From Akkermansiaceae bacterium (GTDB lineage: Bacteria; Verrucomicrobiota; Verrucomicrobiia; Verrucomicrobiales; Akkermansiaceae), in assembly GCA_028293225.1 (NCBI GenBank), contig JAQGPE010000480.1:1-13772 (forward strand): a stretch of 13,772 bases of DNA, written 5' to 3'. The notes beneath the pieces are model-generated. The model did not search any database, had not been told where the DNA came from, and was given only the letters and a program-made list of their open reading frames with translations. This document shows positions 3,304-11,177 of the stretch, piece by piece. Position 1 is the first letter of the stretch, and every line of letters starts with the position of its first letter. The translations under genes were made by a program, and so were the position numbers.

Positions 3304-3323
3304 CACTCTTGTATGGTCCCGTC

Positions 3324-3923
3324 ATGAAGCCTTCCCCCAGCGGAAGAATCGTCAACCTCGCCAACAAGAAGGTCGTGCGTTCGCGCGACGTGAAAGACAT
3401 CGCCGCGCCGCGCGTGAAGATCTCGCAGCTGGTGGGCGAGGGAAAGCTTCACCGGGTGGCCCGGGGCCTCTACGTGTCCAGCAACTATCCGATCACCGAG
3501 AACCATTCGCTGGTGCTTGCCGCCAGGCTGCACCCGAGGGGGGTGGTTTGCCTGCTCTCCGCCGCCCAGTTCCACGGGATCACGCTTGAAATGCCGCCCG
3601 CGGTTTGGATCGCATTTCCACGCGGCAAGAGCGTTCCGGGGCCTGGCGACATCCCCATCAAGCCAATCAAGGTTTCAATACCGGCCTTCGCCTACGGGAT
3701 CGAGACACACCGGCTGGAAGGCATAGACGTGCAGATATACTCGGTCGCCAAAACCGTGGCGGATGGGTTCAAATTCCGCAGCCAGATTGGCGTCTCCGTG
3801 GCGGTTGAACTTCTCAAGGAGGCTTGGAAGCAGCGCAAGGCATCTGCGGATGAACTCTGGGATGCCGCCAGATCCTGCCGCATGCTCAACGTCATGCGAC
3901 CCTACTTCGACAGCCTCCTGTGA
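3324..3923 (+). CDS. abiEi: AbiEi family type IV antitoxin / transcriptional repressor
   Basis: Antitoxin of an AbiE-type type IV toxin-antitoxin system, about 199 aa. The N-terminal third is a winged helix (NLANKKVVRSRDV...KISQLVGEGKLHRVARGLYV), which in characterised relatives binds the operon's own promoter. The remainder is the antitoxin domain, with family signatures SAAQFHGIT and IYSVAKTVADGFKFR near the middle and end. Two ATG starts are possible, 3309 and 3324. The later one was preferred because the predicted operator ends at 3303 and it leaves a normal leader, but neither has a Shine-Dalgarno sequence and the longer form adds only five residues. Its stop overlaps the toxin start by 4 bp, so translation is probably coupled. 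Confidence 0.9.
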   Translation: MKPSPSGRIVNLANKKVVRSRDVKDIAAPRVKISQLVGEGKLHRVARGLYVSSNYPITENHSLVLAARLHPRGVVCLLSAAQFHGITLEMPPAVWIAFPRGKSVPGPGDIPIKPIKVSIPAFAYGIETHRLEGIDVQIYSVAKTVADGFKFRSQIGVSVAVELLKEAWKQRKASADELWDAARSCRMLNVMRPYFDSLL

Positions 3924-4846
3924 AGAAAATCCGGCCAGTCACCAACGTTGCAGCTTCGATCCGGGATCGTCTTCTGAACCTGCATCGGAGCTCGGGCACG
4001 GAGTATCAGCGGCTGATGAATCAGTATGCGCTGGAGCGTCTGCTTTACCGGCTTTCCGTTTCGGAACACCGGGACGGATTTTTGCTCAAGGGGGCCATGC
4101 TCTTCACCGTTTGGGAGGGGGCGCCGCACCGGATGACCAAGGATCTCGATCTGCTTGGTTTCGGGGATCCAGGTGTGGCCGGCATCACTGAAAAATTCCG
4201 CGATCTATCTGTTTTGGCCGTCGCTGACGATGGCCTGTCCTTCGATGCCGGGTCTGTACAAGGCGGGGAAATCCGCGAGGGCGCCAGCTATCCGGGCGTC
4301 CGGATCACGATGAAAGCGATGATGGGCGCGGCGCGAATCAACCTTCAGATCGATATCGGGTTCGGAGACAGTTGCCGCGATCCGGAGGAAGTGGTGGTGC
4401 CGTCCTTGCTCGGCATGCCGGCACCGCAGCTGCGGGCTTACCGCCGGGAAACCGTCGTCGCCGAAAAGCTGGAGGCGATCAACCTGCTCGGGCTTCAGAA
4501 CACCCGTCTCAAGGATTACTTCGACCTTTGGTTTCTTGGCAGCCGCTTCGATTTCGATGGCAAGGTCCTTGCCGCTGCGATCGCTGCCACCTTCGCGAGA
4601 CGCGGATCGAAATTCCCTGACGGCAAGCCCCGTGGATTGAGCGAGGAATTTTGGACCGACGTCCGGCAGATCACGGCTTGGAAAGGCTTCTGGAACAAAA
4701 GCAATGTCGATGGCCCAATGCCGTCTCTGGAAGAAGTGACGCGGTTCATCGCGGAATTTGTCGGTCAACCGCTGCGGGAGGCCGCTGTCCCAAAGGGGTG
4801 GGCGGGAAAATGGACAACAGGCGGGCCATGGTCCGCCTGTTCCTAA
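3920..4846 (+). CDS. abiEii: AbiEii/AbiGii family nucleotidyltransferase toxin
   Basis: A 308-aa toxin partner of the upstream AbiEi. AbiEii proteins are nucleotidyltransferase-fold enzymes that arrest growth and can abort phage infection. Visible motifs are LLKGAMLFTVW (K57, G58), the metal-binding pair D75 and D77 in KDLDLLG, a third acidic residue at D145 (LQIDIGFGD), the lysine of VVAEKLEA (K183), and LKDYFDLWFL (198-206). All key residues appear present, so the toxin looks intact. The start is GTG at 3920, inside the GTGA overlap with the antitoxin stop; it is needed because the conserved AASIRDRLLNLH lies before the first internal ATG. The last roughly ten residues (TTGGPWSACS) are encoded by the terminator hairpin. 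Confidence 0.92.
   Translation: MKKIRPVTNVAASIRDRLLNLHRSSGTEYQRLMNQYALERLLYRLSVSEHRDGFLLKGAMLFTVWEGAPHRMTKDLDLLGFGDPGVAGITEKFRDLSVLAVADDGLSFDAGSVQGGEIREGASYPGVRITMKAMMGAARINLQIDIGFGDSCRDPEEVVVPSLLGMPAPQLRAYRRETVVAEKLEAINLLGLQNTRLKDYFDLWFLGSRFDFDGKVLAAAIAATFARRGSKFPDGKPRGLSEEFWTDVRQITAWKGFWNKSNVDGPMPSLEEVTRFIAEFVGQPLREAAVPKGWAGKWTTGGPWSACS
4816..4841. terminator. Bidirectional terminator hairpin between convergent genes
   Basis: AACAGGCGG (4816-4824) pairs perfectly with CCGCCTGTT (4833-4841), and the 8-nt centre GCCATGGT is itself nearly self-complementary. On the minus strand it is followed by GTCCATTTT, a fair U-tract. It lies inside the last codons of abiEii and just past the stop of the minus-strand gene at 4843, so it can serve both. 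Confidence 0.65.
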
Positions 4847-8517: not shown

Positions 8518-8922
8518 TTAGCCGTTGTTGGGGGCGGTGTTCTCCCGGCGGGTCCGGGCTTGCTTCTTCGCGGCGGGCCGTGTTCCCGGCTTCGCCACGA
8601 TCTGCCAGCGGTCAACCCGCACGCGGTAGCCAAAGACGGTCACGCCGTCTTCCTTCCGCTCGTAGTTGTTAGGACGCAGCTTGCCTTCGATGAGAACGGC
8701 GGTGCCCTTCTTGGTAGCGTTGGCGAACGCTTCGCCGTAGCCATTCCAGATTTCAAAATCCACGCTCATCGGGTCGCCCTTCTTCCACTCCCCGCTTTCG
8801 CGGTCCTTGAAGGATTCGGTATGGATAAGACGGGCACGGGTCACGGTAGCTTCCCCCGCCTGCTGGGTTTCAGGGTCGGCAACGAGGTTCCCGGTGAGGA
8901 TCAGTTGGTTCATGTCAATCAT
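8518..8922 (-). CDS. ssb: Single-stranded DNA-binding protein, accessory type
   Basis: A 134-aa OB-fold protein. MNQLILTGNLVADPETQQ..ATVTRARLIHTESFKDRESGEWKKGDPMSVDFEIWNGYGEAFANATKKGTAVLIEGKL is the standard SSB core, followed by the last strand YRVRVDRWQIVAK. It would coat single-stranded DNA during element replication, transfer or repair. Unusually, the tail is short and basic (KPGTRPAAKKQARTRRENTAPNNG) and lacks the acidic DDDIPF-like tip with which chromosomal SSBs recruit partners. The start is ATG at 8922 (MIDMNQ) or ATG at 8913 (MNQ); longer frames add unrelated residues. It is the first gene of the minus-strand cluster, with AT-rich promoter DNA upstream. Confidence 0.92.
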   Translation of the reverse strand: MIDMNQLILTGNLVADPETQQAGEATVTRARLIHTESFKDRESGEWKKGDPMSVDFEIWNGYGEAFANATKKGTAVLIEGKLRPNNYERKEDGVTVFGYRVRVDRWQIVAKPGTRPAAKKQARTRRENTAPNNG

Positions 8923-9090
8923 GGTCGTATTAGGTTTCGGTTTGTGTTGAGGGTCAGGGCTTTGTGCTCCCAACCGATGAGAATAAGATACCCCCAAAGG
9001 GCACCAACGGCAAGGGGTAAAAACTCATAAGTCATTGATTTATAACGAACAACAAAAGAGAAACGAATTTTTTGTTTGGAAGAAATCTAT
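8923..9090 (-). promoter_or_regulatory. AT-rich promoter region of the ssb cluster
   Basis: This is the only AT-rich stretch near the cluster. On the minus strand one candidate promoter is TTGTTC, a 17-bp spacer and TATGAG; a TATAAA box (complement of TTTATA at 9039-9044) lies within that spacer. Matches are partial and the exact start of transcription cannot be decided. Confidence 0.35.
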
Positions 9091-9187
9091 GACGACCAGA
9101 CAACGCCGCCGCCCATCGGAGCAGGCGTCAAAGGGTGACGGCGGAGCCACGCGCATCCTGCACAAGCGAGGGAAGGGGACCGGCGAA

Positions 9188-9229
9188 TCCGTCAAGGTGG
9201 AGGCGACAGCGGAGCACTACCTTGACGGA
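9188..9229. repeat. Inverted repeat upstream of RNA-like element A
   Basis: TCCGTCAAGGT (9188-9198) and ACCTTGACGGA (9219-9229) are perfect 11-bp arms separated by 20 nt. The equivalent position upstream of copy B has no such repeat, so it is probably not part of the duplicated element. It could be a hairpin or a binding site in the otherwise gene-poor stretch 9091-9310. Confidence 0.4.
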
Positions 9230-9310
9230 ACCCGCAAGGGGAGCCGGGGCGCGATCCGAGCGCGGAAGGGAGCATGGCGATGGCCGGAACGACCGGAACG
9301 TAGTGGAGGG

Positions 9311-9657
9311 AACTTGCCCTTGATGAATGCGGGGCGGTGGCAATCACCACGTCGCCGGCGACGTGCACGCTCATGGTGGGGAGAGGAGGAAAGGCGGGGA
9401 TCACCGGGACGAACGGAATAAAGTCCCCGGCGGCTTCGCCACCCTGGGGACTGCGAGCATGGAAAGCATGCCGCCGGTTTATGCCGGATCGGGCCGGTGA
9501 TGGGGTGGGCCGGATGTGCGGCAGGGGTGGGGCGGAGCGAAGACAGGACCGGGCGAAGCCGTGTCCACGAAACGGGGTCTTAGGGGCGGAGTCCCTAGGC
9601 GAAAGGGTAGGACCGCAAGCAGTAGGTCCGGAGGGAAACACCTTTCCCACGACAGAA
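9311..9657 (+). ncRNA. Candidate structured RNA element, copy A
   Basis: A 347-nt segment without a credible gene that shares ordered conserved blocks with copy B (10361-10858). Blocks: CTTGCCCTTGAT (9313-9324), CGGGGCGGTGGC, a 25-nt identity at 9412-9436, a 19-nt identity at 9471-9489, and the tail ACGACAGAA (9649-9657). Hairpins: a perfect palindrome at 9348-9365; AGTCCCC/GGGGACT (9422-9428/9446-9452) enclosing GGCG/CGCC; TAGGG/CCCTA (9581-9585/9593-9597); GGACC/GGTCC (9610-9614/9625-9629) with loop GCAAGCAGTA; GGGAAA/TTTCCC (9633-9638/9643-9648). In copy B the stems differ in sequence but still pair. The strand is tentative. Class unknown; ORF-less HEARO/omega-RNA-like or intron-like RNAs are possibilities not established here. 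Confidence 0.65.
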
Positions 9658-9760
9658 GTTCTTCCTCTTGGTGAAGAAAGCAGGGTAAATGGAAGGCAAG
9701 CAATTCGCCCCACCCTTCCCATTGAAACTAGGTTTCCCGTAATTCATCGCCGCTGAGTTC

Positions 9761-10057
9761 GTGCTTTTCCAAAGTGCCCGGAAATTCACGCTCTCTCATC
9801 TGACGGTGGGAATCACATTCGCCCGTGTGAGTACGCTGGCATTCCTGTTTGTGAATCGACTGCCCCTCTGGGCCTCGGTTCTTCTGAGGCTGGTCTTCGG
9901 GATCTTAACCGCGTGGCTGGTGTTCCGTCTCTTCCGGCTGGTCTTGCCATGCCTGGGCAAGTTGGTCGCGTGGGGAGTTCTGGCGCCCACGGATCAAGCA
10001 CGGCTTAACCAAAAGGTGGCATCCTACCTCGGCCGCAGCGGGACGGTTGGAAGGTGA
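9761..10057 (+). CDS. Small hypothetical membrane protein upstream of the zinc ribbon
   Basis: A 98-aa frame from GTG with a hydrophobic region likely to cross the membrane once or twice (about 37-76: LWASVLLRLVFGILTAWLVFRLFRLVLPCLGKLVAWGVLA), preceded by an N-terminal segment with Arg and Lys. No family was recognised. Its stop overlaps the GTG of the next gene by 4 bp (GTGA), the same coupling as in the abiE pair, which favours a real two-gene unit. It lies about 100 bp downstream of RNA-like copy A. There is no Shine-Dalgarno sequence and the start is uncertain. Confidence 0.45.
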   Translation: MLFQSARKFTLSHLTVGITFARVSTLAFLFVNRLPLWASVLLRLVFGILTAWLVFRLFRLVLPCLGKLVAWGVLAPTDQARLNQKVASYLGRSGTVGR

Positions 10058-10263
10058 AACGGGCGACGGTCTCCGCGAAACCGGCGGCGACCCCTAGCAA
10101 AGTCAGCTACCAATGTCCGGAATGCAAAGCGCGGGCTTGGGGCAAGCCCGGATTGTCGCTGATCTGCGGGAAGTGCTTCGACACCCGCGGCGAGGTCGTC
10201 CGTCTTGAAATCAACGCCATCTATCTTAAGGAAAAGGACCGCTGGGTTTCCGCCCACTCGTAG
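10054..10263 (+). CDS. Stand-alone zinc ribbon, homologous to the SprT-like protein's tail
   Basis: A 69-aa protein consisting almost wholly of a C4 zinc ribbon (C21, C24, C38, C41; YQCPECKARAWGKPGLSLICGKC). It matches the C-terminus of the SprT-like protein at 1403-2188 closely over the ribbon and more loosely to the end (IYLKEKDRWVSAHS against TYLQATGSWVSARPA). DNA similarity begins at AAACCGGC, shortly before the ribbon. The metalloprotease domain is absent; the upstream DNA encodes a membrane protein instead. It is either the remnant of a second SprT-like gene or a separately maintained ribbon. The GTG start lies in a 4-bp overlap with the previous gene. Confidence 0.7.
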   Translation: MKRATVSAKPAATPSKVSYQCPECKARAWGKPGLSLICGKCFDTRGEVVRLEINAIYLKEKDRWVSAHS

Positions 10264-10282
10264 CGGGCAGCCTGAGCCCGCT
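10262..10282 (+). terminator. Hairpin after the zinc-ribbon gene
   Basis: AGCGGGC (10262-10268) and GCCCGCT (10276-10282) form a 7-bp perfect stem with loop AGCCTGA. It overlaps the TAG stop. There is no U-tract, so termination is uncertain. Confidence 0.4.
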
Positions 10283-10360
10283 CTAGAAATTGCGGGTTTC
10301 ACTTTCATTAATCGGAATGGATGTGGGTCGGATGAACCGCCCCTTTGGCCGGATCCGTCA

Positions 10361-10858
10361 GGCTTGCCCTTGATCGGAAACGGGGCGGTGGCTTTCCCAC
10401 GCGCGATGCGCGTGCTGGCTGTGAATGGGTGAGGGGAGGTGTGGGGGGCCGAGACGCCAACGGAATAAAGTCCCCGGCGGCTTGCCGCCATGGGGACGGC
10501 GAATCCAACGAAGTGGTGACCGCCGGTTTATGCCGGATGGCGTTTTGGCTGCGGCAGGGTGGTAATGCGGTGTGCCGTGCGGAGCCTGGCTAAAAATCCA
10601 ACCGGGCATGGTGATGGGTGGACGCGGCTCCGGGAGCGAGAAACCGAGTGCCGGGGGCGCGGCGGGCCCTTCACGTTGCGGGGGTGCGGAGCATTTGAAA
10701 CGACCCGGCCGACTTTTTCCGGAGCCGGGGTGGTGGAGACCACGCCCCCGGCCGTCGGCCGGATTTCCCGGCTATTCGGGGAGTTGCGGGGTGTCCCCGC
10801 TGAGAAGGGAGAGCCGCACGCAGTAGGCTCGGGGGGAGAGACTTCTCCCACGACAGAA
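10361..10858 (+). ncRNA. Candidate structured RNA element, copy B
   Basis: Second copy of the element at 9311-9657, about 150 nt longer because of a variable insertion around 10590-10770. Conserved blocks in the same order: CTTGCCCTTGAT (10363-10374), CGGGGCGGTGGC, a 25-nt identity at 10459-10483, a 19-nt identity at 10520-10538, and the tail ACGACAGAA (10850-10858). Equivalent hairpins with changed bases: CACGCGC/GCGCGTG (10398-10404/10408-10414); GTCCCC/GGGGAC (10470-10475/10492-10497) enclosing GGCGG/CCGCC; GCGGGG/CCCCGC (10786-10791/10795-10800); GAGCC/GGCTC (10811-10815/10826-10830) with loop GCACGCAGTA; GGGAGA/TCTCCC (10834-10839/10844-10849). Frames crossing it have no protein features. 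The strand is tentative. Confidence 0.65.
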
Positions 10859-11177
10859 TTCAACTATTGCCCAGCAGTTACGATGAGGGGCTTGTAGTAA
10901 GCGACATCGATTTCAGGATGGTACAGATCCATTGATTCAGTGAATCTAGAATGACACATACAAAAATAAATTCAATCATTTGAAGTCTCAAATCCGGCCA
11001 TAGCAAGAATGCGATGCTGTTGGAATAAGGGTTTGCCAGGCATGCATTCTAACAGTTCCGATTTGGTACATTGACGATTTGTGTTGTGTGCCAGATCCCG
11101 AATAAATATATAGCTGCCTAGCAGGCATTAGACGAATCTTATCCTGCCACCTGTCTGGTTATTCTAGTTTAGCTGCC
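10859..11177. other. AT-richer spacer before the secreted protein gene
   Basis: No gene seen. Composition changes abruptly to AT-rich after the end of copy B. It contains a hairpin, CTGTTGGAAT (11017-11026) and ATTCTAACAG (11046-11055), with one non-Watson-Crick pair and a 19-nt loop, and an AT-rich AATAAATATATAG at about 11100-11112, which may hold the -10 box of the downstream gene. No well-spaced -35 box could be assigned. Confidence 0.4.

Follow-up and report, generated by a model that had tools for sequence, protein, structure and literature searches.

The window, meaning the whole 13,772-nt stretch of DNA analysed here, carries two related sequences which a first-pass annotation had described as diverged copies of one element, and the question it raises is what kind of element this is and on which strand it acts. 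The two copies (Table 1) are indeed homologous: in a DNA search of their own assembly (4.5 Mb, 61.8% complete), copy 2 matches copy 1 with E = 3.2e-18 over 177 nt in the 5' part and with E = 9.3e-6 over 55 nt in the 3' part, values which in a whole-genome search set their likeness apart from chance. Both begin with CTTGCCC, as does the copy in genome G106, while a middle part of about 150 nt, missing from copy 1, is present in copy 2 and in the G106 copy. A counterpart of the stretch upstream of copy 1 is recognisable by eye upstream of the G106 copy.

Table 1. Features of the two-copy locus, in window coordinates.
Feature	Position	Strand	Remarks
Element copy 1, short form, 336 nt	9313..9648	+	start CTTGCCC; third hairpin sets the 3' end
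Element copy 2, long form, 487 nt	10363..10849	+	DNA search, alignment and model matches
Copy 1, 5' part	9313..9494	+	GC-rich palindrome and branched GGAATAAAGTCC...GGAC / TTTATGCCGG block
Copy 2, 5' part	10363..10544	+	
Copy 1, 3' domain	9581..9648	+	three hairpins; second loop GCAAGCAGTA
Copy 2, 3' domain	10786..10849	+	three hairpins; second loop GCACGCAGTA
Stretch upstream of copy 1	9090..9312	+	short basic reading frame, then GACCGGAACG.AGTGGAGGGAACTTGCCC; by eye
ssb gene	8518..8922	-	Pfam SSB 7.1e-16; divergent from copy 1

All stem pairs and loops quoted in the first-pass annotation were found in the sequence at the positions given for them, and its central observation, that stems are altered on both sides and still pair, holds stem by stem in the 3' domain. 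Hairpin 1 reads TAGGG/CCCTA in copy 1 (9581-9585/9593-9597) and GCGGGG/CCCCGC in copy 2 (10786-10791/10795-10800), hairpin 2 GGACC/GGTCC (9610-9614/9625-9629) and GAGCC/GGCTC (10811-10815/10826-10830), and hairpin 3 GGGAAA/TTTCCC (9633-9638/9643-9648) and GGGAGA/TCTCCC (10834-10839/10844-10849). With the covariance models R2 and R3, both of which include the copies themselves, the 3' domain scores 86.2 and 74.9 bits in copy 1 and 73.5 and 71.8 bits in copy 2. The tail ACGACAGAA, with which both copies had been said to end, is common to these two but does not extend to the family, where no common sequence follows hairpin 3 in 26 copies and the 3' boundary is sharp after that hairpin.

Relatives become visible mainly through structure. 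A DNA search reached 3 of 260 genomes of the window's family, its own included; the covariance-model search that had been proposed brought further homologues, in at least 28 of the 260 (R2, E ≤ 0.1), while R3 matched at least 24 of 254 family genomes and at least 12 of 387 genomes drawn from the phylum, other families of the order and class included (both at E ≤ 0.01). R2 was built from the four 3' domains then known and R3 from 26 copies; the model covers the last ~68 nt of the element, and these counts are lower bounds at their thresholds, the best 13-20 candidates per genome having been scored. The R3 matches number 41 in 36 sources, the weakest at 35-42 bits and some with an altered second hairpin, and a few may be remnants. 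A 5' model (R1), with a poor automatic structure, found only G000 and G106 among 386 genomes, and a pattern scan of genome contigs gave six matches, five of them chance-like on inspection. Viral contigs yielded 0 and 1 match in two scans; a single IMG/VR contig (L125, 3823-3852) matches the strict 3'-domain pattern. Where a Verrucomicrobiota locus holds two copies, both run in the same direction in 5 of 5 cases (the window, L052, L054, L092 and L094, the second L094 match being weak).

The 3' domain consists of a G/C-rich stem with a short loop (hairpin 1), a GGNCC-type stem enclosing GCACGNAGTA (hairpin 2) and GGGGAA/TTCCCC (hairpin 3). In alignment A9, with 26 distinct rows, 93.5% of 401 stem cells pair, as against 33-65% in slid controls, and two-sided changes occur in 12 of the 16 pairs; each of these two measures was reached by 0 of 500 shuffles, and the number of further pair types by 20 of 500. 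Two pairs of hairpin 2 are C-G, not G-C, in 11 of 26 copies each. A9 is a model-fitted alignment and hence leans towards its own structure. The 5' modules were aligned with MAFFT (A11, 12 rows: nine plasmid and three Verrucomicrobiota modules), 12 of the 18 being used, since six of the sphingomonad/Caulobacter form align less well. Here 96.3% of 349 cells pair (slid controls 37-53%) and 16 of 30 pairs show two-sided changes (0 of 500 shuffles), under a structure predicted from the same rows and therefore favoured over its slid versions; the number of further pair types does not exceed that in shuffles, 295 of 500 of which reach it. A9 and A11 were relied on because four-sequence MAFFT alignments misplaced some stem columns. 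Full-length copies span 332-524 nt (20 measured) and are predicted to hold further long helices.

No protein frame is kept across the element: over the 210 nt adjoining the 3' end, none of the six frames is free of stops in more than 8 of 20 full-length copies. Together with the homologues and their covarying stems, this supports the earlier proposal that selection acts on RNA or single-stranded DNA structure. Comparison with Rfam, as had been suggested for HEARO, group I/II introns and RNase P in particular, was run over all families. None of the Rfam 15 families (HEARO RF02033, group I/II introns, RNase P and others) matched the window at gathering score, and at E up to 10 window positions 9001-11100 gave two chance-level matches. 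Four plasmid loci gave no match, the surroundings of one plasmid module two chance-level matches (E up to 1), and seven Verrucomicrobiota loci only tRNAs.

The genes around the element include those with which conjugative elements establish themselves, namely ssb, ardA, ardC, SprT-like and DUF2958 genes, and also relaxases. The gene link is looser in the window than in relatives: 391 nt separate the ssb start from the 5' end of copy 1, and the small frames on the 5' side of copy 2 are codirectional with it. Among the Verrucomicrobiota matches, 33 of 41 could be assigned, the 5'-side gene being divergent in 25 and codirectional in 8 (binomial P = 0.005), with loci that are partly non-independent and were assigned by hand from ORF maps; L054 13, L055, L052 19065, L065, L098, L102, L094 8522 and L101 were omitted. 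Divergent calls were made from translations by eye in L059, L060, L068 and L097 and from mutual similarity in L052 7430, and L100 was counted by its ArdA gene despite an IS110-like codirectional frame (by eye) in between. Codirectional calls were made by eye in L066, L096, L099 and window copy 2, and by Pfam in L054, L057, L062 and L063. A Pfam-confirmed ArdA (L058, L061) or ArdC (L092 (9279), L093, L095) diverges from the 5' end, and gene-side searches added L067/L106, L104/L107, L071/L122 and L117. DUF2958 adjoins the L064 element and DUF6876 is also found among Verrucomicrobiota neighbours; relaxases are of MobA/VirD2 type near L052, L056, L071 and L104 and of TrwC type near L055, L061 and L064. 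Some divergent 5' neighbours are not establishment genes (the IS110 transposase of L056, a sigma factor, a ComM-type gene), and some copies stand beside defence genes (Cas3 HD/helicase, SNF2 helicase, HsdM, Shedu) or ordinary ones (GMC oxidoreductase, sigma factor, ComM-type). No gene cluster is common to more than four of the first 26 loci.

Searches from the gene side, in 195 family genomes, found 6 ardA genes in 5 of them and 14 ardC genes in 9. Six of these 20 loci have an element at E ≤ 4.3e-4 in the flank that was fetched, up to 1.5 kb, and always upstream and divergent (4 of 6 ardA, 2 of 14 ardC). Seven further matches had E ≥ 0.029 and were mostly the same hairpins on the other strand. 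Of the 13 genomes with ardA or ardC, 10 belong to the 28 that carry the element (P about 9e-9), or 6 if carriers are restricted to E ≤ 1e-3 (P = 8e-5); both P values are approximate, since the background was 260 genomes and the genes were searched for in 195 of them. In part, the co-occurrence reflects only that the genes and the element both travel on conjugative DNA.

The copies belong to a family of structured elements without an Rfam match that occurs in two bacterial phyla, Verrucomicrobiota and Pseudomonadota (Alphaproteobacteria). The window element (9305-10860) as a DNA query matched none of 72,556 plasmid records, nor any phage, and the L093 relative did not bridge to plasmids in DNA searches either; the L064 relative (G084) did, matching 76 of the 72,556 records (E ≤ 0.01), mainly of Sphingobium, Sphingomonas, Paracoccus and other Alphaproteobacteria, with 38 typed conjugative and 15 mobilizable. 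The sphingomonad form (pUT1) matches 76 records (E ≤ 0.001), 41 of them conjugative; the two sets overlap and were counted separately. In no plasmid record is 80% of the L064 query covered at one place. The places listed match either a 5' module of ~130 nt, or part of it, or the 3' domain of ~75 nt, from which the element is taken to be modular, and the two modules also occur apart on alphaproteobacterial plasmids, with up to three places on one plasmid. One Magnetospira plasmid (L134) has two 5' modules on the + strand (1466-1600, 20300-20433) and a lone 3' module on the - strand (23977-24047).

On plasmids the 5'-side gene is divergent in 17 and otherwise placed in 6 of the 23 assignable modules out of 25 (P = 0.03), a count taken from a chosen part of the matching records and omitting Novosphingobium for a gap in its annotation and the Magnetospira 3' module because its divergent gene is 470 nt distant. 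The 17 divergent neighbours include five SprT-like, five ArdC/zincin and one DUF2958 gene. SprT-like genes flank the element on five fetched plasmids. In the window, a SprT-like gene lies at 1403-2188, its C-terminal zinc ribbon repeated, by eye, as a fragment at 10081-10260 between the copies; the inverted repeat TTGTATCGTTCGATACAA stands twice upstream of this gene, at about 1323-1340 and 1377-1394.

An improbable alternative, the least likely of those weighed here, is that the element is a DNA mobility site, be it an oriT, a hotspot for recombination or insertion, or a transposable element that is not autonomous. The sharp 3' boundary past hairpin 3, the nearby relaxases and the cargo of defence or toxin-antitoxin genes that, in at least five loci, starts on the 3' side (Shedu in L055; AbiE, restriction or SIR2 genes) would agree with such a site. 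Two copies per locus, up to three places per plasmid and unrelated relaxase families (MobA/VirD2-type, TrwC) are unlike a single oriT, and no common transposase emerged from the gene clusters of the first 26 loci. The window holds an AbiEi/AbiEii-type toxin-antitoxin pair at 3309-4846 (Pfam AbiEi_4 1.4e-5, AbiEii 8.8e-41), and on plasmids of Leisingera, Caulobacter and Haematobacter genes of AbiEii type come after the element. L060 and L062 have a common 3' flank, CCCCTAATTTCCATAAGA..ATTATCACATC, downstream of the element, which in L062 is preceded by an integrase, and this may mark an integration end. L067 and L103 have sequence in common just past hairpin 3, with ArsR-type neighbours by eye, and differ on the 5' side, where one has ArdA and the other a ComM-type gene.

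Which strand carries the function can be approached through mispaired stem cells, with helices defined by Watson-Crick pairs only. On the element's strand the ratio of G.U to A.C is 42:19 across three full-length Verrucomicrobiota groups and the 3' domain, the cells being non-independent; it is 6:4 in three window-type copies and 5:5, without strand bias, in the 5' modules of the plasmid-rich A11. Raw folding energy is lower on the + strand in 20 of 20 copies, this strand being strongly G-rich; as a strand test it was discounted, because z-scores do not separate the strands and the difference follows base composition. The element's own strand is thus only weakly favoured. An unlikely possibility makes the element a leader, or a regulatory region, for the divergent gene, the complementary strand forming an mRNA 5' leader that folds and controls translation or termination. 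On several plasmids about 85-100 nt separate the gene start from the matched part, which would suit such a leader, as would the many different genes that have the element in common; against it stand the strand bias, which where seen favours the other strand, and the assignable 5'-side genes that do not diverge (8 of 33 and 6 of 23).

The main rival explanation, possible if doubtful and nearly as likely as the one preferred below, invokes a structured non-coding RNA of conjugative elements, which would be read from the element's own strand and act in trans, for instance to counter host defence or to control the plasmid. Several folded domains, the conserved hairpin loops (GCACGNAGTA), covariation and the G.U excess on that strand all agree with such an RNA, and the strand is G-rich with the lower RNA energy in 20 of 20, a difference which again follows composition. 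It fits less well that plasmids can carry the 5' and 3' modules separately, in one case on opposite strands, that the ardC start in L093 lies about 20 nt from the first hairpin, leaving little room for a promoter, and that scores for rightward promoters inside the element are no better than in shuffles (7.4 vs 7.5). Pairs of -35 and -10 hexamers within stems are likewise not beyond shuffles (mean 5.95 vs 6.05 in 20 full-length copies); the scoring assumed the E. coli sigma-70 consensus.

The direction of transfer gives a further point of reference. In nine loci (L052, L056, L061, L064, L071, L104, Leisingera, Rhizobium, Sphingobium amiense) the relaxase or mobC genes point against the direction of the element, and in five (L055, Salipiger, Alloyangia, Paracoccus tegillarcae, and Magnetospira by its two 5' modules) they point along it; judged by the binomial, this ratio does not differ from chance. 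The element's strand can therefore not be equated with the transferred strand. In the usual geometry relaxase genes run away from oriT, so that only the nine opposite loci could place the element on that strand.

Tentatively, and with rather less than even confidence, we prefer the explanation that the family consists of cis-acting structures of conjugative or mobilizable DNA that serve the incoming single strand as a promoter or for priming. On entry into the recipient, the element's strand would fold and recruit RNA polymerase or primase, which would start early mRNA of the neighbouring establishment genes, prime the complementary strand, or both, by a route like that at the Frpo/ssi sites of the F plasmid and via a different sequence. 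Homology, covariation, the mobile-element setting and the mostly divergent 5'-side gene are established; action on the transferred single strand is inferred. In favour of this explanation are the homologues, the covariation, the divergent ardA/ardC genes and the share of ardA/ardC genomes among the carriers, the divergent SprT-like, ArdC/zincin and DUF2958 genes on plasmids, the G.U ratio of 42:19, the double copies in the same direction and the Frpo precedent. It is weakened by stems without -35/-10 pairs beyond shuffles, the mixed relaxase polarity, the opposite-strand Magnetospira modules, the 5:5 ratio in A11 and z-scores that do not separate the strands, and also by the 2 of 14 ardC genes near an element, the non-divergent neighbours (8 of 33 and 6 of 23) and the divergent ones that are not establishment genes. 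A more specific and more doubtful version is a start-up element of both phyla, with 5' (~130 nt) and 3' (~75 nt) modules joined or apart, which would turn on genes for anti-restriction, SSB and SprT-like proteins ahead of second-strand synthesis, its partner being recruited via hairpin loops and not via promoter hexamers.

Single-stranded DNA promoters are known in detail mainly from F-like plasmids of enterobacteria, and a family with covarying stems, next to genes for SSB and anti-restriction in two further bacterial groups, makes it possible to test whether conjugation in general relies on early expression from incoming single-stranded DNA. The element also offers a tag by which establishment regions can be recognised in the sequence of unannotated mobile DNA. 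The Frpo/ssi promoters of F-like plasmids were reportedly described by Masai and Arai in 1997. Frpo-like promoters are reported to lie upstream of ssb and to drive leading-region genes (PMC11541004); that text does not mention Alphaproteobacteria, Verrucomicrobi, Sphingo, SprT, ArdC or DUF2958. Among open-access papers listed for leading-region single-stranded DNA promoters, structured Verrucomicrobiota RNAs, sso of integrative and conjugative elements and conserved elements of Sphingobium or alphaproteobacterial plasmids, a description of the element was not found, which is weak evidence of its absence from the literature.

Like Frpo/ssi, the element forms imperfect hairpins in conjugative elements, with several copies per element, and in many copies, not all, it lies upstream of ssb or anti-defence genes that would be templated by the folding strand. 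Unlike them, its stems are without recognisable -35/-10 hexamers (E. coli sigma-70 consensus), its polarity to the relaxase is not constant, the window element has no sequence match among the plasmid records, and it belongs to other bacterial groups. At best, then, it may work like Frpo; it is not a demonstrated homologue and is not filed as Frpo, since promoter hexamers were looked for and not found beyond chance. With the sso of rolling-circle plasmids and ICEBs1 (PMC4595007) it would have in common a strand-specific site of value in the single-stranded state, and it differs in its association with establishment genes. Known sso consensus motifs include RSB and CS-6. An oriT is one nic-bearing site beside a relaxase operon, unlike an element with two copies per locus, three places per plasmid and unrelated relaxases. 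HEARO, GOLLD and ROOL are large mobile-element RNAs of unknown function; the element differs from them in having no Rfam match at gathering threshold in the window and resembles them in its large, multi-domain, covarying structure on mobile DNA without a protein frame; if it proves to be an RNA, it would be a new large structured RNA of mobile elements.
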